Origin: Variovorax sp. EL159
Lineage (GTDB): Bacteria > Pseudomonadota > Gammaproteobacteria > Burkholderiales > Burkholderiaceae_C
Length of the DNA stretch: 64,000 nt
Assembly (NCBI RefSeq): GCF_900100965.1
Contig: NZ_FMUJ01000003.1
Span: 620,001-684,000 of the forward strand
Reading direction: 5' to 3'
Made by a program: the position numbers and the translations under genes. Shown one piece after another: positions 9,320 through 64,000 of the stretch; position 1 is the stretch's first letter, and every line of letters starts with the position of its first letter. Under the pieces are notes generated by a model, which did not search any database, was not told the origin of the DNA, and saw only the letters and a list, made by a program, of their open reading frames with translations.

Positions 9320-9693
9320 CCATCGATTGTGCGGGCCGCGTTGCATGCCGCACGGCCGGGCTTATCGGCAAGGCACGTGAGGCCATTGCTTGATGCCCCC
9401 ACACGGCACACCTACACTCGCCCGAATGGTCTCCCCGTCCTCGTCCCGCAAGCACCCCACGTGCGCAGCCCTGCCGCTGGCAGCGGCCGGCCGTCGCGCG
9501 GGCTTGGCCGTTGCGGCGGCCACGATGGTCATCCGACGTACCTCCGCACTTTCCTGAGCCCGGCGGTCCGCTACTTCCCTTCTTGTTGCGCGAACCATTG
9601 ACCGCCGGGCACCCGCCGCGCGGTCGCGACTTCGCCTGCTCCAACACAACACAGACGCAGACAGGGCGAGGTCGCATTCCATTGGAGTGCTTC
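9320..9693. other. Gene-free stretch between ynfA and rnk
   Basis: This 374-bp region separates divergent genes and must hold both promoters. A 43-codon open frame (9426-9557) is Ala/Ser-rich and without a ribosome site, so I do not call it. No RNA motif recognised. Confidence 0.5.
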
Positions 9694-10095
9694 ATGCTTG
9701 CAACCATTCACGGGGAGCGCACGCTCACCGAACTCGACGTCGCCCGCCTCAACAAGCTGAACGGCAGCCAGCTTCCGCCCGCGCTGGCCGATCTTCTCGA
9801 CCTGGCAGAGGTCTTGCCATCGCGCGAGGTGCCCGCGGACATCGTGACGATGTACTCGCAGATCGAGGTCGAAGACTTGGCCACGCAGCAGACGCAGAAG
9901 ATCACGCTCTGCTACCCGGGCGACGCGGAGCCGGCGTCCGGCTTCATCTCCGTGCTCTCGCCGGTGGGCATCGGCCTGCTCGGCGTGAAGGCTGGCACGC
10001 TGGCGCGCTGGCAGATGCCGAACGGCGCGGAAGGCGCGGCGCGCGTGGTCGCGATTCTTTTCCAGCCGGAAGCCAGCGGCGACTACACGACCTGA
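9694..10095 (+). CDS. rnk: Nucleoside diphosphate kinase regulator (Rnk/GreA-like)
   Basis: A 133-residue protein with a GreA/GreB C-terminal FKBP-like domain: 'LCYPGDAEPASGFISVLSPV' and 'GIGLLGVKAGTLARW' are the family signature. Rnk lacks the long coiled coil of Gre factors and has a short N-terminal helical part, as here. It can bind RNA polymerase and is named for effects on nucleoside diphosphate kinase. The ATG at 9694 follows a clear GGAG at 9684. Apparently monocistronic. Confidence 0.88.
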   Translation: MLATIHGERTLTELDVARLNKLNGSQLPPALADLLDLAEVLPSREVPADIVTMYSQIEVEDLATQQTQKITLCYPGDAEPASGFISVLSPVGIGLLGVKAGTLARWQMPNGAEGAARVVAILFQPEASGDYTT

Positions 10096-10573
10096 GCTTC
10101 AACGCATGGTGCAGTCGATGGCCGCAACGCCATCAAGCACCCCGGCTGTAACCTTCGAGACAGCGCCGCCCTGCCCCCTCTCAGGCAAGGCGCCGCGCCC
10201 TCCCATCACACGCCTGTTCGATGAGGAGTCCTGAGTAATAATCGCCCCGCTCCGCTGGCCGCCCTCGCACAGAGCTCTCTGTTTGGCGTCATGGCTGGAG
10301 CGACCGAGGATCGGGTTGCTGGCAACCCATGCGTCCCCGTTCCTGACACGGGTCGACATGCCCTCCACGGTGAGCGGCAGACGACCGGGCCTTGCGCGCA
10401 TGCACATGACTTTCGGCACTGGTGTGCCTGACTTTCAGGTCGTATCGTCGCGCGGCCGCTTGCTGCAGCGCGTCGGATCGGGAGGCCGTACAGGCCACGC
10501 AGCCCCCTCTTCGGTTCTCGACGCGTGCCGCCCGCAACGGGCACCGCATTGTTTTCACTTGATAGATCGGGAC
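10096..10573. other. Gene-free stretch upstream of the CsgG-like lipoprotein
   Basis: A 478-bp region with no convincing ORF. It has several short perfect hairpins in a row: GGGTTGC/GCAACCC (10313-10328), CCCGT/ACGGG (10336-10352), GGCAC/GTGCC (10415-10428), CCTGA/TCAGG (10427-10439) and GCCCG/CGGGC (10530-10542). The last is followed by a T-rich run before the next gene. This could be a long structured leader, but GC-rich DNA forms such stems easily. Confidence 0.4.
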
Positions 10574-11473
10574 ATGGCTTTTTCTAAACTCTCTCTCGCA
10601 AGCGCACTCGCCGGCCTGCTGGCTCTTTCGGGCTGCCAGACCATGGACATGCAGATGGGCAGCCAGTCGGCCAAGACCGTGGCTACCGGCAGCGCGGCAG
10701 GCGCCGCCACCTCCGGCGAAAGCAGCCAGCTCGAGCGCTGCGACTCGCCGTTGGGCACCGTCTCGCTGATCGAGAACGTCAATGCCGGCTGGTACACGGT
10801 GCTCACCGGCGAATACAAGCTGCCGCCCACAGCCAACCTGTTGCGCCTGCTGGTGCAGCAATCGAACTGCTTCGTGGTGGTCGAGCGCGGCGCCGCCGGC
10901 ATGAATGCCATGACGCGTGAGCGCGCCCTGATGCAGTCGGGCGAAATGCGCGGCGGCAGCAACTTCGGCCGCGGCCAGATGGTGGCTTCCGACTACGGCC
11001 TGTCGCCCGAGATCGTTTTCAGCAACAGCGATGCCGGCGGCATCGGCGGTGCGCTCGGCGGCCTGGTCGGTGGTGGCCGTGGCCGTGCACTGGCCCAGCT
11101 CGGTGCCAACCTGCAGACCAAGGAAGCCAGCGCGCTCCTGACGCTGATCGACAACCGCTCGGGCGTGCAGGTCGCAGCGGCCGAAGGCAGTGCCTCCAAG
11201 ACCGACTTCGGCGGCTTCGCCAACCTGAGCGGCATCTCCGCTGCCGGCGGCATCGGTGGCTACACGCGCACGCCGCAAGGCAAGGTGATCGCCGCGGCCT
11301 TCATGGACGCCTTCAACCAGATGGTCCGTTCGCTGCGCAACTACAAGGCGCAGACCGTGCGCGGCCAGGGCCTCGGTGGCGGCGGCCGCCTGGGCGTGGA
11401 CGGCGGTGCGGCACCGTCGCAAACCTCGGCACCGAGCACGTCCAGGGGACGTCGCAAGCAGCAGCAACAGTAA
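10574..11473 (+). CDS. CsgG/HfaB-like outer-membrane lipoprotein
   Basis: A 299-residue predicted lipoprotein. The signal peptide ends in a lipobox 'LLALSGC' with Cys21. The body matches CsgG-type proteins: 'NLLRLLVQQSNCFVVVERG' , 'SDYGLSPEIVFSN', a Gly-rich segment, 'LTLIDNRSGVQVAAAEGSA' and 'GKVIAAAFMDAFNQMVRSLR'. CsgG forms the curli secretion pore, but no curli genes are nearby. Many betaproteobacteria carry stand-alone members of unknown role. The C-terminal ~45 residues are low-complexity (Gly, Ser, then RRKQQQQ). The start at 10574 places the signal peptide at the N-terminus. Confidence 0.8.
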   Translation: MAFSKLSLASALAGLLALSGCQTMDMQMGSQSAKTVATGSAAGAATSGESSQLERCDSPLGTVSLIENVNAGWYTVLTGEYKLPPTANLLRLLVQQSNCFVVVERGAAGMNAMTRERALMQSGEMRGGSNFGRGQMVASDYGLSPEIVFSNSDAGGIGGALGGLVGGGRGRALAQLGANLQTKEASALLTLIDNRSGVQVAAAEGSASKTDFGGFANLSGISAAGGIGGYTRTPQGKVIAAAFMDAFNQMVRSLRNYKAQTVRGQGLGGGGRLGVDGGAAPSQTSAPSTSRGRRKQQQQ

Positions 11474-28458: not shown

Positions 28459-29997
28459 CTAACCTTGCGCTGCCACTCTCTCAGCTTGGCTCTGTAACTT
28501 GTTGAGCGCACTCAAATAAGCCTTTGCCGAAGCGACCACGATGTCGGGGTCTGCACCCACACCGTTGACCACCCGCCCTGCGTTTTGTAACCGGACTGTA
28601 ACTTCTCCCTGGCTTTCCGTCGAGCCACTGATGGCGTTGACAGAGTAAAGAACCATCTCGGCGCCGCTTTGGACGTGCGACTCGATCGCCTTGAGGGAAG
28701 CATCCACCGGGCCATTCCCGTCGGACTCGCCGGTGACTTCCTTGCCCTGGACGGTGAAAACCACCTTCGCCTGGGGGCGCTCGCCGGTTTCGCTGTGCTG
28801 GGAGAGAGAGACGAAAGCAAACTGCTCACCAACGTTCGACACCTCTTCCGCGCTGACGAGCGCGAGGATGTCTTCGTCAAAAATTTCGGACTTGCGGTCG
28901 GCCAGCTCCTTGAAGCGCGAAAACGCGGCATTGATGTCGGCTTCGCTCGCCATGGCCACGCCCAGGTCGGTCAGGCGCTGCTTGAAGGCATTGCGGCCGC
29001 TGAGCTTGCCCAGCACGATCTTGTTGGCCGTCCAGCCCACGTCTTCGGCCCGCATGATCTCGTAGGTGTCGCGCGCCTTGAGCACGCCATCCTGGTGAAT
29101 GCCCGAGGCGTGCGCAAAGGCGTTCGCCCCCACCACGGCCTTGTTGGGCTGCACCACGAAACCGGTGGTCTGGCTCACCATGCGGCTGGCGGCCACGATG
29201 TGCTGGGTGTCGATCCGCAGGTCGAGCCCGAAGTAGTCCTTGCGGGTCTTCACCGCCATGACGACTTCTTCGAGCGAACAGTTGCCCGCGCGTTCGCCCA
29301 GGCCATTGATGGTGCACTCCACCTGGCGCGCGCCGCCGATCTTCACGCCGGCCAGCGAGTTGGCCACCGCCATCCCGAGGTCGTTGTGGCAGTGCACGGA
29401 CCAGATCGCCTTGTCGCTGTTGGGCACGCGCTCGCGCAGCATCTTGATGAAGCTGCCGTAGAGCTCGGGGATCGCGTAGCCGACGGTGTCGGGCACGTTG
29501 ATGGTGGTGGCGCCTTCGTTGATCACGGTCTCGATGACGCGGCAGAGAAAGTCGGGGTCGCTGCGGTAGCCGTCTTCGGGGCTGAACTCGACGTCGCCCA
29601 CCAGATTGCGCGCAAAGCGCACGGCCAGCTTGGCCTGCTCATGCACCTCCTCGGGCGACATGCGCAGCTTTTTCTCCATGTGCAGCGGCGATGTCGCAAT
29701 GAAGGTGTGGATGCGGCCGCGCGCCGCGCCCTTCAGCGCCTCGGCCGCGCGTGCGATGTCGCGATCATTGGCGCGCGAAAGGCCGCACACCGTCGCGTCC
29801 TTGATGACATCTGCAATCGCCTTGACCGCTTCGAAGTCGCCGTTCGAGCTGGCCGGGAAGCCGGCTTCGATCACGTCGACCTTGAGCCGCTCCAGCTGCT
29901 TGGCAATGCGCATCTTCTCGTCGCGCGTCATCGAGGCGCCGGGCGATTGCTCGCCGTCGCGCAAGGTGGTGTCGAAAATTATGAGTTGGTCAGCCAT
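28459..29997 (-). CDS. leuA: 2-isopropylmalate synthase, type 1 (LeuA)
   Basis: A 512-residue enzyme condensing acetyl-CoA with 2-ketoisovalerate, the first leucine step. Motifs: '[18 protein letters not shown]', '[18 protein letters not shown]' (metal-binding HxH) and '[11 protein letters not shown]'. A C-terminal regulatory domain for leucine feedback is present (about 390-505). The ATG at 29997 has AAGGAGA upstream. It follows the type 2 leuA by 51 bases on the same strand, so both enzymes may be under the same attenuator. Confidence 0.95.
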
Positions 29998-30048
29998 CGT
30001 GAATCTCCTTTGTTCGTTTCCACCTTGCGCACCCGGCAAAGGGCAGCG

Positions 30049-31752
30049 TCAGGCGACTTCAACCGCCGATTGTGCGCTGCGCGCGCCCCGGCTCCGCGCC
30101 CGCTCGACGCCCGAGACGATGGCCTTGAGCGATGCCGAGATCACGTTCGCGTCGATGCCGACGCCGAACAGGGTCTGGCTTTCGTCAACGCGCAGTTCAA
30201 GGTACGCCACCGACTTGGCATCGGCACCGGCGCCGATGGCGTGCTGGTGGTAGTCCATCACGCGCACGGTGTGGCCGGTGGCCTTGCTCAGTGCCTGCGT
30301 GAAGGCGTCGATCGGCCCGTTGCCACGGCCTTCGATGGCGCGGATCTCACCGTCCCAGGGCAGGTCGCCGCGCAGAACCACGACAGCATCGGCGCCCTCG
30401 CCCTCTTCCTCGATCACGCGGTGCTGCAGTGAATGGGCGGCCTCGATGCCGTACTCGCGCACGAAGAGATCCCAGAGGTCGGCCGCCGTGAGCTCCTTGC
30501 CGGCCACGTCCATCACGCGCTGCACGGTCTGCATGAATTCCATCTGCAGGCGGCGCGGCATCTCGATGCCGTACTCGCTCTCGAGCAGGTAGGCCATGCC
30601 GCCCTTGCCCGACTGGCTGTTGACGCGGATCACGGCCTCGTAGCTGCGGCCCACGTCCTTCGGGTCGATGGGGAGGTAGGGCATGTCCCAGATGTCGCCG
30701 TCCTTGCGCGCGGCGAAGGCCTTCTTGATCGCATCCTGGTGCGAGCCCGAGAACGAGGTGTAGACCAGATCGCCCACGTACGGGTGGCGCGGGTGTACCG
30801 GAATCTGGTTGCAGTGCTCGACCGTCGCGCGAATTTCGTCGATGTTCGAGAAGTCGAGCTCGGGCGACACGCCTTGCGTGTAGAGATTGAGCGCGACGTT
30901 CACGAGGTCGAGGTTGCCGGTGCGTTCACCGTTGCCGAAGAGGCAGCCTTCGATGCGCTCGGCACCCGCCATCAATGCCAGCTCACCTGCCGCCGTGCCA
31001 GTACCGCGGTCGTTGTGCGGATGCACGCACAGGATGATCGAGTCGCGCCGCGCAAGGTTGCGGTGCATCCACTCGATCATGTCGGCAAAGATATTCGGCG
31101 TGGAATGCTCCACCGTGGTGGGCAGGTTGACGATGCACTTGCGCTCGGGCGTCGGCGCCCAGACTTCGGTGACCGCATCGACCACGCGCTTGGAAAACGC
31201 GACGTCGGTGCCCGAGAACATTTCGGGCGAATACTGGAAGGTCCACTGCGTCGCCGGCTGCTTGGCGGCGAAGTCGTTGAACATGCGCGCATGGGTGGTG
31301 GCGAGCTCGACGATCTGGTCTTCGCTCATGCCGAGCACCACGCGGCGCATCACCGGGGCCACGGCGTTGTAGAGGTGAACGATGGCGCGCGGTGCGCCCT
31401 GCAGCGCCTCGAAGGTGCGGGCGATGAGGTGGTCGCGTGCCTGCGTCAGCACCTGGATCGTCACGTCGTCGGGAATGCGGTCTTCCTCGATCAGCTTGCG
31501 CACGAAGTCGAATTCGACCTGGGAAGCGGAAGGAAAGCCGACTTCGATTTCCTTGAAGCCGATGGCCACGAGGGTCTCGAACATGCGCATCTTGCGCGCG
31601 ATGTCCATGGGCTCGACCAGGGCCTGGTTGCCATCACGCAGATCGGTCGACAGCCAGATCGGGGCCTTGGTCAGCACGGCATCGGGCCAGGTGCGGTCCT
31701 TGAGGCCGATCGGGGCGAATGCGCGGTATTTGGCTTGAGGTTGCTTGAGCAT
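30049..31752 (-). CDS. leuA: 2-isopropylmalate synthase, type 2 (LeuA2)
   Basis: A 567-residue isopropylmalate synthase of the longer, actinobacterial/fungal-like class. Motifs: '[20 protein letters not shown]' (equivalent to the TTLRDGEQ of type 1), '[20 protein letters not shown]' and '[12 protein letters not shown]'. The regulatory C-terminus is '[20 protein letters not shown]' onward. The ATG at 31752 is preferred over upstream in-frame codons. A leucine-rich leader ORF and a terminator lie upstream, so leucine supply should control it by attenuation. Confidence 0.93.
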
Positions 31753-31793
31753 GTCGATTTCTCTGTGATGGTTGGTATTCAACCAGCAACCCC

Positions 31794-53978: not shown

Positions 53979-55132
53979 TGACGAACGATGCGAGCCGCAC
54001 CCGCCTGGGCGCCGCCTGGCGCGATACCGCGCTGGCGGTGCTGCGCGACAAGGGCGTGCTGCTGATCATGCTGCTCGCGCCCATCATCTACGGCTTCTTC
54101 TACCCGTGGCCCTACGGCACGCAAGCGGTGACGCGCGTGCCGGTGGCGGTGGTCGATCAGGATCACAGCGGGCTGTCGCGGCAGATCGCGCGCTTTGCCA
54201 TGGCCAACCCGCGCCTCGACGTGCGGATGGTCACGGCCGATGTGCGCGAGGCGCAGCAGGCGCTCTGGCGCGGCGATATCGAGGGCTATGCGCTGCTGCC
54301 GGCCGATCTCAAGCGCAACGTGCTGCGCGGCACGTCGGCGGTGGTCACGATCGAGGGCAACGGCGCCTATGCGCTGCTCAACAAAGCGGTGCTGTACGGT
54401 TTTTCGGAGGCGGTCGGCACGGTCTCGGCGGGTGTCGAGATTCGCAAGCTGCAGGCCGGCGGCCAGAGCGCCATTCAGGCGGCACGCAGCCGCAGCCCGC
54501 TCAGCACGCAGCTCGTGGCGCTGTTCAACCCGACCGAAGGCTACGGCAGCTACGTGGTGCCGGCGGTGGCGCTGCTGATCCTGCAACAGACGCTGCTGAT
54601 GGGTGCCGCAATGCTGGCCGGCACCTGGGCCGAGGCCGGGCGGCTGCGTGCGTCCACGAGTGCGTGGCTGGGGCGCCTGGGCGCGCTGTCGGTGTTCGGG
54701 GTTCTCAGCGGCCTTTTCTATTTCGGCTGGGTGTTCTTCCTGCAGGACTACCCGCGCGGCGGCAATCCGTGGGGGGCGCTGGTGCTGCTGGTGTTCTACG
54801 TGCCCGCGATCTGCACGCTGGGCCTGCTGCTGGGCTGCTGGTTCCGCGATCGGGAGCGGGCCTTGCAGGTGCTGCTGTTCACTGCATTGCCGATGGCTTT
54901 TCTCTCGGGCTTCTCATGGCCGGTCGAAGCCCTGCCCGGGCCGCTGCAGGGGTTGCGCTGGATTTTCCCGAGTACCTCGGGCATTCAGGCTTCCTTGCGC
55001 CTCAACCAGATGGGCGCGCCGCTGCATGACGTGCTGCCCTACTTGGGCGTGCTGCTGTCGCTGACGTTTGCGGGGCTGCTGACGCTGTGGCTCGCCGCCA
55101 CGCCGCGCGCCGCCGACAAGAAACGTCTCTAG
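53978..55132 (+). CDS. ABC-2 type permease (second of pair)
   Basis: A 384-residue paralogue of the preceding gene: the same single N-terminal helix, 'VAVVDQDHSGLSRQIARFAM' loop and C-terminal helix bundle. The sequence similarity points to a tandem duplication. Last gene of the efflux unit; its stop overlaps the convergent TetR gene by 4 bases. Confidence 0.88.
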   Translation: MTNDASRTRLGAAWRDTALAVLRDKGVLLIMLLAPIIYGFFYPWPYGTQAVTRVPVAVVDQDHSGLSRQIARFAMANPRLDVRMVTADVREAQQALWRGDIEGYALLPADLKRNVLRGTSAVVTIEGNGAYALLNKAVLYGFSEAVGTVSAGVEIRKLQAGGQSAIQAARSRSPLSTQLVALFNPTEGYGSYVVPAVALLILQQTLLMGAAMLAGTWAEAGRLRASTSAWLGRLGALSVFGVLSGLFYFGWVFFLQDYPRGGNPWGALVLLVFYVPAICTLGLLLGCWFRDRERALQVLLFTALPMAFLSGFSWPVEALPGPLQGLRWIFPSTSGIQASLRLNQMGAPLHDVLPYLGVLLSLTFAGLLTLWLAATPRAADKKRL

Positions 55133-55758
55133 CGCTGGCTCTCGGCGGCCACCGCGCGCACCAGCCGCGTGGCCGGGCCGACCAGTTCACGCAGATCGCC
55201 CGCGCGGTCCTGCTCGATCGACTGCAGCACCAGTTCATTGATGCCGCCGACCACCGTCATCGCCATCTCGTTCGTCAGGTGCACCGCGGGGTCTTCCGCG
55301 CCACCGCTGCTGTTGATCGCGATCTGGATGAAGTTGGCGATCTCGTCGTTCACCCGGCGCCGCACCACAAGGCCCGGCATGCCCAGCCCCAGGATCTCGA
55401 CGAAGAGCGTGCGCAGCAGCACCGGGTCTTGCGCAAGGTAGTCGAAGTACGCGGTCATTGCCTGCTCGACCTGCGCATGCCAGGGCTGCACCGGATCGAA
55501 CGCCTCGCTCACCGCCTGCAGCGCCAGCCGGCTCGCGGTTTCGTAGAGCGCGATCAGGCACTCGGTCTTGGTGCTGAAATGCTCGTAGAAAGTGCGGCGC
55601 GAGACGGCGGCCTCGCGCACGATGTCGGCAATGGTGGTTTCGGCGTAGCCCTTGGCCGCCACGGCATGCGCCATGCCCTGGAGCAGCCGGGCGTAGTGTT
55701 CGTTGACCGGGCCTTCGGCAGGCTTGGCAACGGCTGTCTTTTCGATGGTTGCGCTCAT
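55129..55758 (-). CDS. TetR-family transcriptional regulator
   Basis: A 209-residue regulator. N-terminal HTH 'TIADIVREAAVSRRTFYEHF' with 'STKTECLIALYETASRLALQ' is diagnostic. The ligand domain (about 80-209) has no motif that names its effector. The start is ATG 55758; a GTG nine bases earlier is possible. It is divergent from the metal-dependent hydrolase gene, and two GGTAC-N6-GTACC palindromes between them are probable operators. Confidence 0.9.
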   Translation of the reverse strand: MSATIEKTAVAKPAEGPVNEHYARLLQGMAHAVAAKGYAETTIADIVREAAVSRRTFYEHFSTKTECLIALYETASRLALQAVSEAFDPVQPWHAQVEQAMTAYFDYLAQDPVLLRTLFVEILGLGMPGLVVRRRVNDEIANFIQIAINSSGGAEDPAVHLTNEMAMTVVGGINELVLQSIEQDRAGDLRELVGPATRLVRAVAAESQR

Positions 55759-55782
55759 GAATGGCACATTTTCCTACGTCTC

Positions 55783-55798
55783 GGTACTTGACAGTACC
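55783..55798. promoter_or_regulatory. Palindromic operator 1 (GGTAC-N6-GTACC)
   Basis: GGTAC TTGACA GTACC; the spacer is itself a consensus -35 (TTGACA) oriented toward the hydrolase gene. A repressor here would cover that promoter. Confidence 0.7.
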
Positions 55799-55826
55799 AG
55801 CCTGCGATTGCACCATGGCGGCATTC

Positions 55827-55842
55827 GGTACGCAGTTGTACC
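55827..55842. promoter_or_regulatory. Palindromic operator 2 (GGTAC-N6-GTACC)
   Basis: GGTAC GCAGTT GTACC, the same half-sites and spacing as operator 1, with centres 44 bp apart (about four helical turns). Confidence 0.65.
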
Positions 55843-55887
55843 AATCGCCCATCCCACGCTTCCCGTGCTTTTTCGAGGATTGTTTTC

Positions 55888-56730
55888 ATGACTGAACTCG
55901 TTGTTCGCCGCCTTCTGATCGATCTGCAATCGCCATTTGCCCGCGACTGGTGCGGCGGCGATGCATTCTCGACCGCTTTCTTCAACGCGCTGTCGATGAG
56001 CTTCCCGTTCGGAGAGCAGTTTTTCATCGATGCCGTGCGCGACGCGGTGGCCACCCTGCCCCCCGAGGTCCAGGAAAAGTACCGCGCCGACGTGCGCGGC
56101 TTCATCGGCCAGGAGGCCACGCACCGCCGCATCCATTCGCTGTTCAACGCCCACCTCGAAAGCCAGGGCCTGGTGGACGGCTGGACCGCGCGCGCCGGCA
56201 AGCGCATGACCTTGATGGAAGGCGCCGATCCGCGCCACGCGCTGGCGGTTACCGCGGCCACCGAGCACTTCACCGCGATGTTTGCCGAATGGCTGCTGGC
56301 CCACCCCGGGATACTCGACGGCGCCGAGCCGCGCCTGCGCACCATGTGGCTGTGGCACAGCGCCGAGGAGCTGGAGCACAAGAGCGTCGCCTTCGACATC
56401 TACAAGGCCGCGGACGGCTCCGAGGCCTGGCGCAAGCGCTGGTTCCGCCGCGTGACGATGATGTTCCTCGGCGACCTGATGCACCAGACCATCGACAACC
56501 TGCGCCACGAAAAGCAGTTGTGGAAATGGTCGACCTGGAAGAGCGCCGCGCGCATCCTGCTAAGCCGCGATGGCCTGTTGCGCGGCAACCTGAGCGGCTG
56601 GCGCAGCTACCTGCGCGCGGATTTCCATCCGGCACAGCAGGACAGCAGCCTGTCGACGCGCTGGCTGGTGGACAACCGCGCGCAATACACGCCCGTGGGC
56701 GCGGCGCCCGAGGCGGCCGCCGCTCGATGA
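55888..56730 (+). CDS. Metal-dependent hydrolase family protein (PF10118-like, ferritin-like)
   Basis: A 280-residue helical protein. Likely metal ligands occur in 'GFIGQEATHRRIHSLFNAHL', 'AATEHFTAMFAEWLL' and 'WHSAEELEHKSVAFDIY', a pattern of paired Glu/His as in di-iron helical bundles. The family is called a predicted metal-dependent hydrolase, but an oxygenase-type role is equally possible. The ATG at 55888 follows GAGGA. It is probably repressed by the divergent TetR protein. Its stop abuts the convergent neighbour. Confidence 0.82.
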   Translation: MTELVVRRLLIDLQSPFARDWCGGDAFSTAFFNALSMSFPFGEQFFIDAVRDAVATLPPEVQEKYRADVRGFIGQEATHRRIHSLFNAHLESQGLVDGWTARAGKRMTLMEGADPRHALAVTAATEHFTAMFAEWLLAHPGILDGAEPRLRTMWLWHSAEELEHKSVAFDIYKAADGSEAWRKRWFRRVTMMFLGDLMHQTIDNLRHEKQLWKWSTWKSAARILLSRDGLLRGNLSGWRSYLRADFHPAQQDSSLSTRWLVDNRAQYTPVGAAPEAAAAR

Positions 56731-57319: not shown

Positions 57320-57516
57320 GGCTGAACCCCTTTGCGAGCGTTGAAATCCGCGCCCGGTGCGGAGCGCCAATGGCTTTGCTGCAAATTCATTGGAAATCGA
57401 CTACAGATTAGAACTTTTGAATAAATGCAAATCGATGCATCATTTGTTTCCAACTGTATATCGATTGGGCCCGATGTGGAAGCCAATCAGCGACAAGCTC
57501 GCGCGGAAATGTCGCC

Positions 57517-57549
57517 AAAACGTCTCCCCACCGTGGTAGCGGGGAGACG
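57517..57549 (-). terminator. Terminator at the end of the lipid-modifying operon
   Basis: On the minus strand CGTCTCCCC, an 11-nt loop, GGGGAGACG, then TTTT. The 9-bp perfect stem begins 6 bases after the last stop codon of the run. The opposite strand also has TTTTATT after the stem. Confidence 0.8.
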
Positions 57550-57554
57550 CTGTT

Positions 57555-57791
57555 TTATTCCGCCGCCAATGCCTCGTCGAGCGCCTTGCACGAAGGCGCG
57601 CAAACGGTCTGGGATTTTCCGAGCACCTGGCGCGTACGCAACTGCGAGCGAACGCGGTGCTTGCCGCACATGAAGCAGGACATGGTCGCGCCGCTGAACG
57701 ATGCCGAGGCGCGGAACGGCGAGCCCGGCGTCTTGGTCTTGTAGCGCAGGCCGTCCGCCACCACTGCCGTCTTCACTTCACCCTTCGCCAT
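57555..57791 (-). CDS. Small Cys-containing protein of unknown function
   Basis: A 78-residue protein. 'SCFMCGKHRVRSQLR' and 'TVCAPSCKALDE' give a CxxC and a CxxxC pair, so four Cys that could bind zinc or iron. It is not a canonical rubredoxin (CxxC twice). Its start overlaps the upstream gene stop by 14 bases, so it is the last gene of the run ending at the terminator. Role unknown. Confidence 0.65.
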   Translation of the reverse strand: MAKGEVKTAVVADGLRYKTKTPGSPFRASASFSGATMSCFMCGKHRVRSQLRTRQVLGKSQTVCAPSCKALDEALAAE

Positions 57792-58140
57792 GCGTCTTGT
57801 CCTTGTTGTTCGGTTCGGCACGGCGCATCGCGCGTGCAATGGCTTCCCTGGCGCTGGCCTCAGCCGCAAGGGAAACGTCCAGCGCCGAGCGGCACAGCCC
57901 GGCGTGTTGATAGTTGAGATTTTCGTAGACCTCGGAGGCGGCCGGATAGGCATCGAGCAGCCGGCCGAGGTCGGCGCCCTGTTCGACATCCTCGAACTCG
58001 TGGACAAGGTGCTCGACCACCGAGCGGTACTGCTCGGCGCCGACGGGCACGGGGCTGTGCTCGAGCTTTTCCAGCAGTTGAGCCAGCACGTGGGTCACTG
58101 CCAGATCGGTCTTGGGCGACGGATTTCGGGTCGTGTTCAT
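57778..58140 (-). CDS. Hypothetical protein in the lipid operon
   Basis: A 120-residue soluble helical protein; 'LAQLLEKLEHSPVPVGAEQY' and 'LVHEFEDVEQGADLGRLLDA' are its best-defined parts. No known motif. Start ATG 58140, or 58149 (MQT) three codons earlier. It follows the next gene by 26 bases and overlaps the small Cys protein. Function unknown. Confidence 0.6.
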   Translation of the reverse strand: MNTTRNPSPKTDLAVTHVLAQLLEKLEHSPVPVGAEQYRSVVEHLVHEFEDVEQGADLGRLLDAYPAASEVYENLNYQHAGLCRSALDVSLAAEASAREAIARAMRRAEPNNKDKTHGEG

Positions 58141-58166
58141 GGTTTGCATCTGGGGGCAGCATACGC

Positions 58167-59078
58167 CTATGCAAGTGGCTGCTCGTACAGGGATGTCTCG
58201 GCTTCCCCCGCTTTCTGCGCCGCCTGCATCCGCTGGAGCAGGCTGTGGAGCATCTCGGTCGACAACCCGTGGATCACCAGCCGGTGCCCCGCGCGCAGGG
58301 TCGACAACGGCACCAGCGGGTGCTTGTTGTTGACCAGGATCAGGTGCTCGGGCGCGTTCAGCAGGGTCGCCGTGTAGATGCCGATGGTTTCGTCCAGTTG
58401 CAAGGAGTTGGCCGCACGCCAGAAATCGTTGTCGGTCAGCATCAGCTGGTAGAGCGGCGTGAAAAGCTCGATCGCGCTTTGCAGGTCGAGAAAGTTCAGC
58501 CTGCCGTTCGGCATGTCTTCCAGCCGCAGCCCCGGCTCCTTGATCATCGAGAAATCGACCTTTTCGGCCTTGCACAGCGCCAGCCCCTTCTCGCGCAGCG
58601 CCGTGTTCAGGCGGATCACGAAATTGAAGAGATTCAGGTCGTGCTTGAGGAACATCTCGTCCTTCAGCGCGTCGATGTCGGCCGGCTCCAGCGGGTTCGT
58701 GGCCACGGGCGCCGGCGAATTGCGGCCGATGAAGGCCAGCACCTGCGAGCCCAGGTGAAAGTGCCGCAGGATCAGCCAGTTGGCCTCGGGCGACACGAAG
58801 CGCGTCAGCCCCCAGGCCAGGAAGCGGTGCAGCAGCTTCGAGTGCGACCAGTTGCGCGGCACGAACACCTTGACGATCTGGATCAGGATGATCGTCAGCC
58901 GCGCCAACGGCCGCAAAAAGGGCAACAGGTACTGCCGCGACCCCGAGCTCGAATCGGCCAGCCACGCCGACTTGACGTTGTCCGGCAGCGGCGTGCTCTG
59001 GTCGAGGTAAAGCGCCAGCCACGGGCTGGGGTCGCGCTCGTCGTGTGCCTGGGTCAGGAATTCAGGCGTTCGGCTCAT
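58167..59078 (-). CDS. Conserved hypothetical protein in the lipid operon
   Basis: A 303-residue protein with one hydrophobic segment (about 50-75, 'FLRPLARLTIILIQIVKVFV') and several conserved-looking His/Asp positions ('WLILRHFHLGSQVLAF', 'MFLKHDLNLFNFVIRLN'). I do not recognise the family. Its start overlaps the KAS III fusion stop by 17 bases, a strong sign of coupled translation. It may be a membrane-associated partner of the fusion enzyme. Confidence 0.65.
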   Translation of the reverse strand: MSRTPEFLTQAHDERDPSPWLALYLDQSTPLPDNVKSAWLADSSSGSRQYLLPFLRPLARLTIILIQIVKVFVPRNWSHSKLLHRFLAWGLTRFVSPEANWLILRHFHLGSQVLAFIGRNSPAPVATNPLEPADIDALKDEMFLKHDLNLFNFVIRLNTALREKGLALCKAEKVDFSMIKEPGLRLEDMPNGRLNFLDLQSAIELFTPLYQLMLTDNDFWRAANSLQLDETIGIYTATLLNAPEHLILVNNKHPLVPLSTLRAGHRLVIHGLSTEMLHSLLQRMQAAQKAGEAETSLYEQPLA

Positions 59079-60984
59079 GGGTCATTCGCTCCGTGATGTG
59101 CTGGAACTGCATCAGATACAGCGCGGCCGTATGGCGCGCCGTGTCGATGATCTGGCGGGCCGCGCGCGCCTGCCCTTCCACGGCCATGACCATCTCGACC
59201 GCGGCGAGCCAACGGTTCAGGTGGTTCTCGTCGTTGTGGCCGTGGTACTCGAGAAAGCGGAAGGCATCGGGCGGCAGCTTCAGGCCGGCCTTGATGAGCG
59301 GCAACAGCGCCGGCACGATGCGCTGGCCCGTGCCCTCGATGATGTAGATGGCGCCCAGCAGGCCGATCGGGTCGCGCGTGGCGGCCAGCCCGTGCAGGTA
59401 GGCATTGAGCGCCTCGCCACCGGGGTTGCGGCGCAGCTCGTCGATCTGCCTGACCGTACCACCGGCCTTCTTGTAGTCGTCGAACAGGATGTTGAAGTCG
59501 TTCTGCTCCTCGCCTGCGTGCACGTCGATCAGCGACGCAAGCATCTGGTAGGGCTCGCTCAGCGAGGCCGCGCCCTCACGCATCCACTTGCTGCCTTCGC
59601 GCACCTGCGGCACCCACTGCTCCATCCAGTTCAGGTAGTCAGGCAAGGCGAAGCGGCGCTCGCGGATCTGGCGGATCAGCGACGTGCGCCAGACGCGCGA
59701 GCGGTAGTCGTGCCAGATCGAGGCCAGCTCCGTCAGCAAGGCACCGAGGCCTTCGGGCGCGGCGGCCGGATCGTGCGGGGGCGCGATGACGAGGTCGTCG
59801 TCGGGCACCGCCGGTACCGTTGCACGGGGCGCAACGGCGGCCGGCGCTGCATCGACCGCCTCGACTTCGAGCAGCATGTACGCCGCCATGAAACGGCCCG
59901 ACTCGGGCACGTAGCAGAAGATCTGCTCGCCGGGCTTCAGCGTCTTGGTGTGCAGGAATTCGGCCAGCATCACAAGGATCGACGCCGCGCCCGTGTTGCC
60001 GCGCCACGCCAGGTTGCTCCACCAGCGTTCGCGCGGAATCGACAGATCGGCCTTTGCCATCAGGTCCTCGACCACCGGAATGAATCTTTCCGACGAGTAG
60101 TGGCACAGGAAGTGATCGACCCGCTTCGGATCGACCCAGCCGTCGCGCACCAGCCCTGCGTATTCGTGGATGCCGACGTCGAACAGGTGCGGCAGCAGGC
60201 GGATGTCTTGCCGCAGCGACAGCGCACCGGCGGCTTCCGCCTCGGCCCAGGAGCCGAAGTCGAGGTGGCCGCGCGCGCGGTCTTCGGTCAGGCCGAGCTG
60301 CATGCAGACCGGGTAGTCGCCCGAAAAGGCGCGCTGGTGCACCCACTTCAGCCGCAGGCGCAGCCCCGGCACCCCGGCCAGTGCCGGCGAACCGTCGGAC
60401 AGCAGCAAGGCACCCGCGCCATCGGACAGCATCCAGCGCAGGAAGTGCGAGTCGAAGTCGGTCTCGTAGCCGCGTGCCGCAAAGCGCGAGCGCTTGAAAA
60501 GCCGCGACGGCATCTCGCTCGCCACTGCCATCGCCGTGCGGTGTGCGCCCAGCTCGATGCCCTGCGCGGCCGTCTGGATCGCCGAAACGCCCGCGGCGCA
60601 GATGCCGTGCACCGAATGCGTTTCCATCGGCTGCGCCGCAAGCTCGCCCTGGATCATGTTGGCAAAGCCGGGCATCAGCGCATCGCCGCCCGACGACCCG
60701 CTGGCCAGCAGCGACACGCGCGACAGCTCGGCCCCGCCGCGCCGCAGGCAGTCGCGGATCGCACCGGCGGCCAGTTGCGCATTGGTGTGCTGCGTCACGC
60801 CTTCGGCGTCGATGGCGTAGTGCCGGGTGAGGATGCCGTTCTCCACCAGGATGCGCCGCTTGATGCGCTCCGACATGCGGTTGAGCGGTGCGATGTACGC
60901 ATCCATGCGCTCGTTGGGAATGGGTTCGCCCGGCATGAAGTAGCCGGCGCTTTCAAGGTAGACGCGTTGAAATGGAACAGGCAT
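59062..60984 (-). CDS. KAS III-like thiolase fused to haem-oxygenase-like iron enzyme
   Basis: A 640-residue fusion. Residues 1-375 are a KAS III/OleA-like condensing domain with an intact Cys129-His295-Asn330 triad ('SVHGICAAGVSAIQ', 'HFLCHYSSERF', 'WRGNTGAASI'). A Pro/Ala linker (about 378-412) follows. Residues 415-640 are a haem-oxygenase-like domain with likely Fe ligands in 'DVHAGEEQNDF' (H489), Glu550 and 'EYHGHNDENHLNRW'. Relatives of this second domain do O2-dependent decarboxylation or N-oxidation. The joint activity is unknown but suggests acyl-chain condensation plus oxidation. Confidence 0.85.
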   Translation of the reverse strand: MPVPFQRVYLESAGYFMPGEPIPNERMDAYIAPLNRMSERIKRRILVENGILTRHYAIDAEGVTQHTNAQLAAGAIRDCLRRGGAELSRVSLLASGSSGGDALMPGFANMIQGELAAQPMETHSVHGICAAGVSAIQTAAQGIELGAHRTAMAVASEMPSRLFKRSRFAARGYETDFDSHFLRWMLSDGAGALLLSDGSPALAGVPGLRLRLKWVHQRAFSGDYPVCMQLGLTEDRARGHLDFGSWAEAEAAGALSLRQDIRLLPHLFDVGIHEYAGLVRDGWVDPKRVDHFLCHYSSERFIPVVEDLMAKADLSIPRERWWSNLAWRGNTGAASILVMLAEFLHTKTLKPGEQIFCYVPESGRFMAAYMLLEVEAVDAAPAAVAPRATVPAVPDDDLVIAPPHDPAAAPEGLGALLTELASIWHDYRSRVWRTSLIRQIRERRFALPDYLNWMEQWVPQVREGSKWMREGAASLSEPYQMLASLIDVHAGEEQNDFNILFDDYKKAGGTVRQIDELRRNPGGEALNAYLHGLAATRDPIGLLGAIYIIEGTGQRIVPALLPLIKAGLKLPPDAFRFLEYHGHNDENHLNRWLAAVEMVMAVEGQARAARQIIDTARHTAALYLMQFQHITERMTHEPNA

Positions 60985-60988
60985 GGGA

Positions 60989-61933
60989 TCAGTGGATTGA
61001 AGAATCGGGAGGCATCAGCGAGCGGCTGCGAAAGCGCGGCCACACGGCCCCCAGCACGAACACCCGCAGCATGTACGGCACCAGCCCGCCCTCGTTGAGC
61101 ACGGGCGCGACCCGCGCGCGGTAGCGCGTGTGATGCAGGTGCGTGAGCTCGGACCAATGGGCATGCGGGTTCTCGTGATGTGCGGTGTGCAGGCCGATGT
61201 TGAACAGCAAGGGGTTGACCAGCCCCTCGAAATTGCGCGCGTAGTTCAGTCCGCTCCCGTGGGTATCGCCCAGCGCCTCTTTCTCCTTGCGCGGCGTCTT
61301 GCGGCCGTCGGCGTGCGCGTGCTGCAGGTAGTTGGTCGCCAGCAGCCAGTGCAGGCCATGCAGCTGCGGCACGATCACGAACAGCAGCGCCTTGCGCCAG
61401 TCGAGCGCCAGCAGCACGGCCCAGCTCGCCAGCCACAGCGCGTACTGCGCCATGCAATAACGCCAGGCGCCCGGCTGGTGCTTGCGCAGCCTCGCGAGCC
61501 AGTCGAAGAACACAGGCATCAGCACCCACACCGCCTGGAACGGGTGCAGCAGGTAGCCCCACAGATGGTTCGTGTCGCCACCGAAACGGTAGGTGCGCGC
61601 CACGTCCTTCGGACCGTGCCGGTAGCGATGGTGGTTGGCCACGTGCGCGGGCCAGAACACGAAGGTCGGGTGCCCCTGCAGCAGCGTGATCCAGAAGTCG
61701 GTCAGCCGGTTCATGCGCCGCCCGCGCCACATGCGCAGGTGCACGTGGTTGTGGTGGATCACGCCGATGCCGAGCGTGAGGAACAGCATCAGCGCGTAGA
61801 GCAGCACGTTGAAGCCATGCACCCACTGCCACGCCGCAAGCGCGGGCAGCGCCACGAGGTAGGCCAGGCTCTGCCAGTCGCGCCAGTGTCTCAGGCGTGG
61901 CAAGCGGCGGCGCACGTCAGGCGGTCGCGCCAT
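60989..61933 (-). CDS. Membrane fatty acid desaturase
   Basis: A 314-residue integral membrane di-iron desaturase. The histidine boxes are 'HHNHVH', 'HVANHHRYRH' and 'HTAHHENPHAHW', in the usual spacing and count. Hydrophobic segments lie at about 18-60 and 150-205. The start is ATG 61933, overlapping the preceding gene's stop by 17 bases, and it ends 4 bases before the KAS III fusion. Confidence 0.9.
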   Translation of the reverse strand: MARPPDVRRRLPRLRHWRDWQSLAYLVALPALAAWQWVHGFNVLLYALMLFLTLGIGVIHHNHVHLRMWRGRRMNRLTDFWITLLQGHPTFVFWPAHVANHHRYRHGPKDVARTYRFGGDTNHLWGYLLHPFQAVWVLMPVFFDWLARLRKHQPGAWRYCMAQYALWLASWAVLLALDWRKALLFVIVPQLHGLHWLLATNYLQHAHADGRKTPRKEKEALGDTHGSGLNYARNFEGLVNPLLFNIGLHTAHHENPHAHWSELTHLHHTRYRARVAPVLNEGGLVPYMLRVFVLGAVWPRFRSRSLMPPDSSIH

Positions 61934-62726
61934 GCTGCTCTGGTTGGGGTTGCTGCTGTTGCCTTTGCAGTTGCTTGTCGCGGAAGGCCTGGAAAAGCGG
62001 CTCAGCGGCATCGGCCGCGATGCGGGTGCGGAACAGCCGGTCCATGAAGGTGAACTGGAAGCCATAGTTGCCGTTGTGAACGGCATGGTGCAGATGATGA
62101 CGGCGGCTCGCGGCAAACCAGTGGTTGTACGACACCCGCCTGAAGAAATCGTAGTTCGAGTGCCCGACGCAATTGAAGAACAGGCTGAACACCGGCACCG
62201 CCGCGAGCGCCCAGAAGCTGAAGTCGTGCACCACCATCGGCAGCAGGATCACGTTGCCCAACATCAGCGCCTCGAGGGGATGAAAGCTGTACGTGGACCA
62301 CGGCGTGGTCACGAACGAGCGGTGATGCGGCCCATGAAAGCGCCGCAGCAATCGCGTGTGCAGCAGGCGGTGGTTGATCCAGAAATGCACGTCGTTCCAG
62401 ACTGCCAGCATGAGGACTTCAATCGCGATCTGCCACCCGCCCGCATCGGCGTCGAGCCGAGCCCAGCCCAGCTGCAGCAAGCCCCACGGAAACACCATGC
62501 CGAGCCCGAAGATCAGCACCGAGATACTCGACTGCCCTATTTCGCGCCGCAATTGCCCCGGCTGCAACGGGCGCGGATCGAGCGCACGCCCGATGCCGAG
62601 CGCCGGCAGCACCCGCTTCGTCAGCAGCCAGAAGATGCCGCCGAAACCGAAGTAGATGCCCCCGAAAAAAAGCACGCCCCACAGCATGACCTGCAGGACG
62701 GACAACGATGTAAAAGTCTGTGCCAT
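61917..62726 (-). CDS. Sterol desaturase / fatty acid hydroxylase family protein
   Basis: A 269-residue membrane protein with the fatty acid hydroxylase superfamily His motifs: 'HFWINHRLLH', 'FHGPHHRS' and 'HHLHH'. Four or five hydrophobic segments. It ends in a Gln-rich tail. Such enzymes hydroxylate or desaturate lipid chains and alkyl ethers. The start is ATG 62726, 9 bases after the phospholipase D gene. Confidence 0.88.
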   Translation of the reverse strand: MAQTFTSLSVLQVMLWGVLFFGGIYFGFGGIFWLLTKRVLPALGIGRALDPRPLQPGQLRREIGQSSISVLIFGLGMVFPWGLLQLGWARLDADAGGWQIAIEVLMLAVWNDVHFWINHRLLHTRLLRRFHGPHHRSFVTTPWSTYSFHPLEALMLGNVILLPMVVHDFSFWALAAVPVFSLFFNCVGHSNYDFFRRVSYNHWFAASRRHHLHHAVHNGNYGFQFTFMDRLFRTRIAADAAEPLFQAFRDKQLQRQQQQPQPEQHGATA

Positions 62727-62735
62727 CCCCCAAGG

Positions 62736-64000
62736 CTACAACAGCATCTCGGGAACGATCGGCGCGATGAGCATGTTGTAGAAGCGCTTGAAGAAACCCG
62801 ACTCGGGTTCGGCGGTCAGGATCACCTCTTTCTCGCCGTCGTTGGTGAGCCATTGCAGCGTGCCGGTGTCCTTGGCCAGCCGCAGCCGGTACGAGTTCTG
62901 CAGCTTGCTGATGTTGATGACGCGCAGCATCTCGCGCGCCAGTTGCGGGCTGTCGACCACCAGCCCCATCTCTGTGTTCTGGCTGGCCGAGCGCGGATCG
63001 AGGTTCATCGAGCCGATGAAGATGCGCTCCTTGTCGATGGCGGCGGTCTTTGCATGCAGCCGGCCGAGCGACTTGCCGAACATGCCGAAGCGCTCGCCCG
63101 CACTGGTGCGCTGCGGGCTCAGCTCGTACAGGTCGGCGCCGCCCTGCAGCAGCCGCTCGCGGTAGCGCGCATAACCGGTGTGCACCAGCGGCTCGTCGTT
63201 GGCGGCCAGCGAGTTGGTCAGCAGCGTGACCTTGATCTTGCGCCGGGACAGATCCTCGAAAGCCGCCATGCCGCGCTCGCCCGGCACGAGGTAGGGCGAG
63301 GTCATGTCGACCTCGGTCTTAGCGTCGAGCAGCAGGGCCCACACCTTCATCGTCACGCTGGTGGCGATGGCCTCGTCGGCCGTCATGGTCGCCGGCTTGG
63401 AGGGCGGGTCGGCAATGGCGCGGGCCTCGCCCCACAGCAGGCCCATGCGGCCGCCGTCGAGCTCTTCGGCGATGGGGCCATAGCCCAGGATGTCGGACGG
63501 CGGCAGCACGATCTTCGGCGGCGGCGCGGCCATGCCGACCCAGCTGTCGAAGTCGTCGGCGCCGGGCTTGTGGCCGCCCTCGCCCGTCACGATGTCGGCA
63601 ATGGGCCAGACCTGCACGCTGTTCCAGTAGGCGTCGAAGATCGATTCGAGCTGCGGCACCACCTTGCCGACCACCAGCGCGTCCATGTCGATGAAATTCT
63701 GGGCCTCGCTCAGCACGAAATATTCTTCGGCGATGTTGCGCCCGCCCACCACGGCCATCACGCCGTCGGCAATGAAGAGCTTGTTGTGCATGCGGTGGTT
63801 GAGCCGGTTGATCTCGAACGGCGAAGCCACGAAGCGCGAGAGAAGTCCGTCACGGCCGCAACAGAAAGGGTTGAACAACCGCACCTCGACGTTGGGCGTT
63901 TCGGACAGCGCCAGCAGCAGCAGCTGGCTCTTGACGGTGTACAGGTCGTCCACCAGCACCCGCACCTTGACGCCCCGGGCCGCGGCCTCGCGCAGCGTGC
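62736..64000 (-). CDS. Phospholipase D-family protein (partial at window edge)
   Basis: Over 420 residues, open at its N-terminus beyond base 64000. Two HKD motifs are visible: 'HNKLFIADGVMAVVGGRNI' and 'HAKTAAIDKERIFIGSMNLD'. The layout is that of cardiolipin-synthase/phospholipase D-like proteins, and the frame continues to the edge ('TLREAAARGVKVRVLVDD'). It is the first visible gene of the run; earlier genes may lie outside the window. Confidence 0.9.
   Translation of the reverse strand, partial: TLREAAARGVKVRVLVDDLYTVKSQLLLLALSETPNVEVRLFNPFCCGRDGLLSRFVASPFEINRLNHRMHNKLFIADGVMAVVGGRNIAEEYFVLSEAQNFIDMDALVVGKVVPQLESIFDAYWNSVQVWPIADIVTGEGGHKPGADDFDSWVGMAAPPPKIVLPPSDILGYGPIAEELDGGRMGLLWGEARAIADPPSKPATMTADEAIATSVTMKVWALLLDAKTEVDMTSPYLVPGERGMAAFEDLSRRKIKVTLLTNSLAANDEPLVHTGYARYRERLLQGGADLYELSPQRTSAGERFGMFGKSLGRLHAKTAAIDKERIFIGSMNLDPRSASQNTEMGLVVDSPQLAREMLRVINISKLQNSYRLRLAKDTGTLQWLTNDGEKEVILTAEPESGFFKRFYNMLIAPIVPEMLL

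Follow-up and report, generated by a model that had tools for sequence, protein, structure and literature searches.

Which genes at the right edge of a 64,000-nucleotide stretch of the Variovorax sp. EL159 genome form a functional unit, and what might that unit make? The stretch (hereafter the window; G000:C7:620001-684000) carries on its minus strand a run of seven co-directional genes. Read from the right edge, they encode a phospholipase D (PLD)-like lipoprotein, a membrane protein of the fatty-acid hydroxylase superfamily (FAH), one of the fatty-acid desaturase superfamily (DES), a fusion of a ketosynthase (KS) to a haem-oxygenase-like dimetal oxidase (HDO), a DUF6999 protein and two small proteins (genes 6 and 7). 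A first-pass annotation had proposed that all seven act together in a new lipid pathway. We found that the conserved unit is the four-gene cassette FAH, DES, KS-HDO and DUF6999, that its deeper core is KS, HDO and DUF6999, and that PLD, gene 6 and gene 7 are local Variovorax neighbours outside it.

A conserved four-gene cassette

The four genes of the cassette, with protein lengths in amino acids (aa), are as follows.

61917..62726, minus strand: FAH, membrane fatty-acid hydroxylase-superfamily protein, 269 aa, core gene 1.
60989..61933, minus strand: DES, membrane fatty-acid desaturase-superfamily protein, 314 aa, core gene 2.
59062..60984, minus strand: KS-HDO fusion, 640 aa, core gene 3; KS at residues ~1-380, HDO at ~416-632.
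58167..59078, minus strand: DUF6999 protein, 303 aa, core gene 4; PF22523 at 437.8 bits (cut-off 27).

To define the unit, we compared homologous loci, taking the best 80 of 211 candidates; this sample is biased to near relatives, and most of its loci span ~22 kb. FAH, DES, KS-HDO and DUF6999 were adjacent in 76 of the 80. The exceptions were a 3.3-kb contig (L082), a locus lacking FAH (L050), and two loci with only DES and KS-HDO (L048 and L075). In the genomes of the last two (G1182 and G1183), FAH and DUF6999 occupy a separate site, flanked by PLD and gene 6; thus all four genes are retained although DES and KS-HDO stand apart as a pair. At the PLD sites L205 and L206, FAH is joined directly to DUF6999 with a gap of -1 or -4. 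A gene-by-gene comparison of 31 loci, made with a simple open-reading-frame caller, gave the same picture: the four core protein clusters occurred in 31, 30, 29 and 27 loci, and the runner-up among the flanking clusters in 10, at varying positions. The cassette is also found in Achromobacter, Bordetella, Pseudorhodoferax, Pigmentiphaga and other named relatives, and 49 of 81 sampled Variovorax genomes have KS-HDO (E <= 1e-150).

These results bear directly on the first-pass annotation. The co-directional run it described is present, and its six junction lengths (+9, -17, +4, -17, +26 and -14 bases) were reproduced exactly on the genome stretch L004. In 26 of the 80 loci the PLD-to-FAH gap is again +7 to +10, and nearly all of these loci have similar lengths at the remaining junctions, indicating that the gene run exceeds chance. 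Every domain it had named scored above its Pfam cut-off: PLDc_2, FA_hydroxylase (PF04116; 78.3 bits, cut-off 31), FA_desaturase (PF00487; 71.3 bits, cut-off 29.7), ACP_syn_III_C and Haem_oxygenas_2. Of the three proteins it had listed as unknown, one is the DUF6999 protein and the other two match no family above cut-off. The conserved-neighbourhood comparison it suggested likewise recovered linkage, although of four genes: tight linkage around a fusion of KS III and iron enzyme with two membrane di-iron enzymes stands, and joint action of all seven genes is not supported.

The three other genes of the run flank the cassette.

62736..64000, continuing to ~64313, minus strand: PLD-like lipoprotein gene; PLDc_2 at 113.6 bits; 525 aa in L004.
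57778..58140, minus strand: gene 6, 120 aa; no family above cut-off; cassette neighbour.
57555..57791, minus strand: gene 7, 78 aa, small Cys-containing protein; sub-threshold metal-binding matches; cassette neighbour.

Extending the sequence past position 64000, as the first-pass annotation had recommended, showed that the run begins with PLD: this gene starts outside the window at ~64313 (L004:9314), encodes a full protein of 525 aa with a lipobox-like N terminus (LGAC), and is divergent from a gene that we named peroxiredoxin-like by eye. The 420-aa part of PLD inside the window scored 77.9 bits against the bacterial cardiolipin synthase model TIGR04265, below its cut-off of 290.

A single pathway in which PLD, gene 6 and gene 7 work with the four core genes would fit the short junctions and common direction, and it would fit the loci with PLD (30 of 80) or gene 6 (28 of 80) adjacent, all of them Variovorax, in which these genes are probably co-transcribed with the cassette. 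The same genes, however, exist as a group without it. A PLD homologue, paralogues included, was matched in 79 of the 81 Variovorax genomes. Among the 30 loci most like the window PLD, the next gene was FAH in 29 and gene 6 in one. We then considered 20 sites, 19 from lower-ranked PLD matches plus that single PLD-gene 6 locus. The cassette lay between PLD and gene 6 at eight (one of them, L192, without FAH), PLD, gene 6, gene 7 and gene 8 were contiguous without the cassette at ten, and at two PLD adjoined gene 8, the cassette and genes 6 and 7 all being missing from the interval. No KS-HDO match (E <= 1e-100) was found in any of the ten genomes with cassette-less PLD-gene 6 sites; of the two PLD-gene 8 genomes, G1136 carries KS-HDO within a few kilobases, on the opposite side. 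Among the non-Variovorax loci of the 80, a few of which are on short contigs, the four core genes have other neighbours, and none of PLD, gene 6 and gene 7 was seen next to them. In L040, L044 and L045, PLD and genes 6 and 7 lie on opposite sides of the cassette in a different order. Because of the cassette-less sites and the other genera, we rejected the seven-gene pathway, which is largely refuted already and to which we assign only a very small residual probability.

In many Variovorax, then, the cassette is flanked by a PLD lipoprotein gene on one side and two small genes on the other. At the ten cassette-less sites the PLD-gene 6 gap is 60-111 bases, and gene 6 retains a leader element with the core CTTGCA in nine and a one-base variant in the tenth; in the window, the last codons of DUF6999 overlap this leader. 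The leader comparison does not decide between gain and loss of the cassette. The cassette-less arrangement may reflect secondary loss in L187 and L202, and ancestral absence in the more distant genomes.

The ketosynthase, HDO and DUF6999 core

We also followed DUF6999 through wider samples. It was present in nine of 398 genomes across the phylum sample, in six of 289 in the class of G419 and in six of 274 in the class of G559, 18 distinct genomes overall. Sixteen of the 18 carry a DarB-like KS and an HDO beside it, fused in eight and as separate consecutive genes in the other eight. Thus the deeper core consists of KS, HDO and DUF6999. All eight fused genomes belong to the window's class, and seven to its order. 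Two of the split genomes (G559 and G915) also belong to this class, while the other six belong to a different one, most likely Alphaproteobacteria, since the alphaproteobacterium Caulobacter vibrioides, a control genome, was DUF6999-positive. Of eight plasmid records with a match, only Pseudoalteromonas THAF3 (on an 801-kb replicon) has KS and HDO, in the order 185-aa protein, KS, "iron-containing redox enzyme" and DUF6999, which is the same split order.

The 185-aa protein of THAF3 is 64% identical to the protein beside the L105 cassette and has no family. This conserved protein of 185-188 aa precedes KS-HDO-DUF6999 at L105:11941-12507 (G559) and L209:6436-6993 (THAF3); it appears by eye to be a membrane protein with several His residues and has no Pfam family, and it perhaps takes the role of DES and FAH. 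In L104, the cassette is followed by a gene fusing major facilitator superfamily, acyltransferase and AMP-ligase parts.

A tree of 40 KS rows separated the forms. The 17 DarB-type rows formed one group (support 100/99) and the 14 fused rows another (99/100), so that one fusion event suffices. The eight split rows fell outside both groups, six of them together (100/100); L105 was placed beside the fused group (93/76) and L151, on a long branch, beside the DarB group (93/86). Near the base of the fused group, L149 lacks DES and FAH, and L108 has a DES-like gene and no FAH. The order of these basal rows aside, this pattern suggests that the membrane enzymes were added stepwise.

By sequence, the best solved relative of the cassette KS was StlD (7.2e-59), far ahead of all others. 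The predicted KS domain also aligned best with StlD (Z 37.6, root-mean-square deviation 3.6, 334 residues aligned), followed by FabH, AbyA1 and OleA at Z ~31. The catalytic residues C129, H295 and N330 were invariant in the 22 cassette and 17 DarB-type rows (39 of 39), so the cassette KS has both the Cys-His-Asn triad and the fold of the StlD/DarB family. Its scores against the curated family model NF005293 (StlD/DarB family beta-ketosynthase, cut-off 450) were nevertheless low: 314.0 bits for the window KS and 310-414 for all eight cassette KSs tested (L104 321.7, L105 398.2, L146 360.4, L148 310.3, L149 311.8, L151 413.7 and L209 372.1). The DarB-type controls L002, L120 and L128 all passed, at 569.9-588.6; the same three nevertheless fall under the cut-off of 550 of the narrower DarB model NF053539.

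The locus L002 (G000:C5:705962-707080) is a separate DarB-type KS in the window's own genome, with a DarA-like gene just upstream, as expected for a dialkylresorcinol cluster. We call this neighbour DarA-like from its position; the protein matches no family. A homologue of it was found in 17 of 17 DarB-type loci and in 0 of the 191 others among the 208 loci searched (some of them short, ~3-5 kb), and hence beside no cassette KS. In a published dialkylresorcinol cluster, darA adjoins darB (excerpt of PMC3949708), and darB with darA yields a dialkylresorcinol in a heterologous host (excerpt of PMC3992019). With scores below the curated cut-off and no DarA, the cassette KS was rejected as a true DarB and retained as a mechanistic analogue. 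Compared to DarA-DarB and StlD, it shares family, fold and triad, which makes head-to-head acyl condensation likely; it differs in its lower score, its place outside the DarB group of the tree, and its partners, HDO and DUF6999 in place of DarA. DarB and StlD are presumably members of a dione-forming KS class. Enzymes of this class form 2,5-dialkylcyclohexane-1,3-diones from a beta-ketoacyl and an unsaturated acyl thioester (excerpt of PMC4578411). Because DarB-type KSs use acyl thioesters, the lack of an acyl carrier protein (ACP), ligase or thioesterase in the run, which the first-pass annotation had pointed out, is not odd.

OleA and PpyS resemble the cassette KS in their KS III fold and thioester head-to-head chemistry, but they are structurally less similar to it than StlD is, and their partner enzymes differ. 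Of the 22 cassette rows, 17 have a Glu in the aligned region (E114), a possible counterpart of the residue that serves OleA and PpyS as catalytic base.

The HDO domain scored 38.6 bits against PF14518 (cut-off 28.9) in the window, and the five split forms that were scanned, out of eight, scored 30.7-41.2 (L104, L105, L146, L148 and L151). Its candidate metal residues are E493, D496, E550, H581, D585 and H588, with H489 as an additional candidate, and all seven were invariant in 13 of 13 fused and split rows. In an alignment with 3dde, E493, E550, H581, D585 and H588 fell on the same residues, and D496 fell on a His. Most HDO sites have three His and three carboxylates, and about a quarter have three His and four carboxylates (excerpt of PMC13108848). 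The site here may have two His and four carboxylates, unless H489 supplies a third His. A fold search with the KS-HDO model was filled by KS chains and thus covered the KS part. Like UndA, BesC, SznF and CADD, the cassette HDO has H-x3-D-x2-H and Glu motifs and PF14518; unlike them, it is fused to or beside a KS and has Asp where 3dde has His. The words "ketosynthase", "fusion" and "fused" are absent from a 2026 review of HDOs (PMC13108848). DtpC of Acinetobacter is an HDO of desiccation tolerance (excerpt of PMC13232832).

PF22523, the DUF6999 family, was matched by all 14 members of our alignment of diverse rows. Residues invariant in all 14 include D26, R48, R105, H106, N120, H146, D147, D198, N224, D229, H270 and E275, a pattern that we would expect of an enzyme more than of a scaffold. 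The AlphaFold model is nearly all helical, with a local confidence (pLDDT) of 72.8 and a global score (pTM) of 0.74. A Foldseek search with it gave no match with E < 2.4, and the weak list, which includes ferritins and BesC, is meaningless; a second fold comparison returned one row, at Z 2.3, and no solved relative was found by sequence up to E 10. We also considered whether DUF6999 could be remotely related to HDOs or ferritin-like proteins. When its profile was compared with the HDO alignment, the probability was 0.3%, and no fold match was significant, so the kinship was rejected, a rejection that is absence of evidence only. DUF6999 is the one member of the cassette whose kind of enzyme is not already known.

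DES and FAH belong by Pfam to the same membrane di-iron superfamilies as UndB and the membrane desaturases and hydroxylases, and the His boxes of DES (HHNHVH, HVANHH and HTAHH) are present. They differ from these enzymes in having no significant solved relative (none for DES, one chance-level row for FAH) and no NCBIfam match, so that a subfamily, UndB-like or other, could not be assigned.

Possible chemistry and its rivals

What we observed is the gene set and its conservation, a tree that needs only one fusion, catalytic residues that are all in place, and a cassette separable from PLD and genes 6 and 7. On this footing we propose that the cassette carries out head-to-head acyl condensation in a new form: HDO would replace DarA, DUF6999 would contribute a further step and the membrane di-iron enzymes would decorate the chains. 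We give this proposal an even chance. The DarB/StlD-like KS would load a fatty acyl thioester on C129 and join a second head-to-head to form either a 1,3-dione ring or a beta-keto intermediate, as family, fold and intact triad suggest; by analogy, the thioesters would come from primary fatty-acid synthesis. The HDO domain would then activate O2 at its dimetal site and oxidize this intermediate, in place of the DarA step. We infer this placement from the fusion, from the adjacency of the two genes when split and from the absence of DarA. DUF6999, predicted to be helical and bearing invariant His, Asp and Glu, might perform or assist a further step, and in the window's form of the cassette the membrane desaturase and hydroxylase would, judging by their families, modify the alkyl chains.

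Several observations weigh against this proposal. By curated score the cassette KS stands apart from DarB, and its specificity could be different; E114 is absent in five of 22 cassette and three of 17 DarB-type rows. At the HDO site, D496 aligns with a His of 3dde, the site may not be canonical, and PF14518 was not reported for the Pseudoalteromonas HDO. The DUF6999 model is of middling confidence with no fold match, which makes an enzymatic role a guess. Two genomes have DUF6999 and no KS-HDO match, G912 with an intact gene (L150) and G892 with one in three pieces. The near-basal loci L149 and L108 imply that the core can do without DES and FAH. A third gene, darC, can occur in known dar clusters (excerpt of PMC6403133). 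A related Streptomyces KS on a plasmid lies beside ACP genes, a different setting, and carrier needs may differ among related KSs.

Two other routes would use the same enzymes differently. The KS could make a beta-keto acid, as OleA does, which HDO would cleave or decarboxylate, as UndA does, to give alkenes or ketones, with DES and FAH acting before or after. In the fold comparison OleA ranks in the group of structures behind StlD, and UndA is an HDO acting on fatty acids (excerpt of PMC13108848). However, the KS is nearer to StlD than to OleA in fold and far nearer in sequence, no flanking gene is conserved as OleB, OleC or OleD would be among the 31 loci, and one HDO metal residue deviates from the aligned 3dde; we consider a hydrocarbon or ketone product unlikely. 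Alternatively, the cassette could make a diffusible signal, such as a cyclic dione, pyrone or resorcinol. Dialkylresorcinols and photopyrones are signals in Photorhabdus made by related KSs (excerpt of PMC4578411), and the patchy distribution of DUF6999 across the phylum sample is consistent with such a role. Yet the 31 loci share no conserved regulator or receptor gene next to the cassette (in L104 a TetR-like gene, identified by eye, adjoins it), and the presence of two membrane lipid oxidases suggests that the product is lipid-like. A signaling role thus seems quite improbable to us.

Returning to the condensation variant, we put forward one extension of it that is doubtful as a whole. KS, HDO and DUF6999 would form a three-enzyme system, present in at least two proteobacterial classes, that makes a new class of oxidized lipid from fatty acids joined head-to-head, with DUF6999 as a new and perhaps metal-dependent enzyme family and an HDO with an unusual 2-His/4-carboxylate dimetal site; individual lineages would diversify the product by adding other membrane oxidases or the small His-containing membrane protein. 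If the proposal is true, this small cassette of three to four genes would represent an oxygen-dependent branch of the head-to-head KS pathways, which lead to resorcinols, diones and pyrones, among them antibiotics and signals. It would also give DUF6999 its first functional context and place an HDO on a ketosynthase product. In the open-access literature, to which our search was limited, we found no paper on the KS-HDO-DUF6999 set; the first-pass view that the genes match no known pathway holds within that scope.

Further features of the window

The run ends in a candidate terminator.

57516..57550 (main stem ~57520-57550), minus strand: hairpin and short T run after gene 7, probable terminator.

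The 66-nt stretch with this hairpin folded at -28.6 kcal/mol compared to a shuffle mean of -18.6 (z -3.56), and none of 200 shuffles was as low. The hairpin read as a terminator in the first-pass annotation is thus stable beyond chance, but only four T follow it, and a simple terminator scan did not list it.

The metal-binding matches of gene 7 are weak (TRASH-like), and the protein is 83-100% identical among the Variovorax loci that carry it. In L150 (~9389-11412), the lone DUF6999 gene adjoins a gene that resembles a transposase or integrase by eye. Just beyond the run, at 55129-56730, the window has a TetR regulator and a divergent PF10118 gene (predicted metal-dependent hydrolase), both common to many Variovorax loci. 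Farther away, at 28459-31782, lie two adjoining LeuA-like genes of the isopropylmalate/homocitrate synthase type, near genes for a CDP-alcohol phosphatidyltransferase and an acetolactate synthase small subunit.

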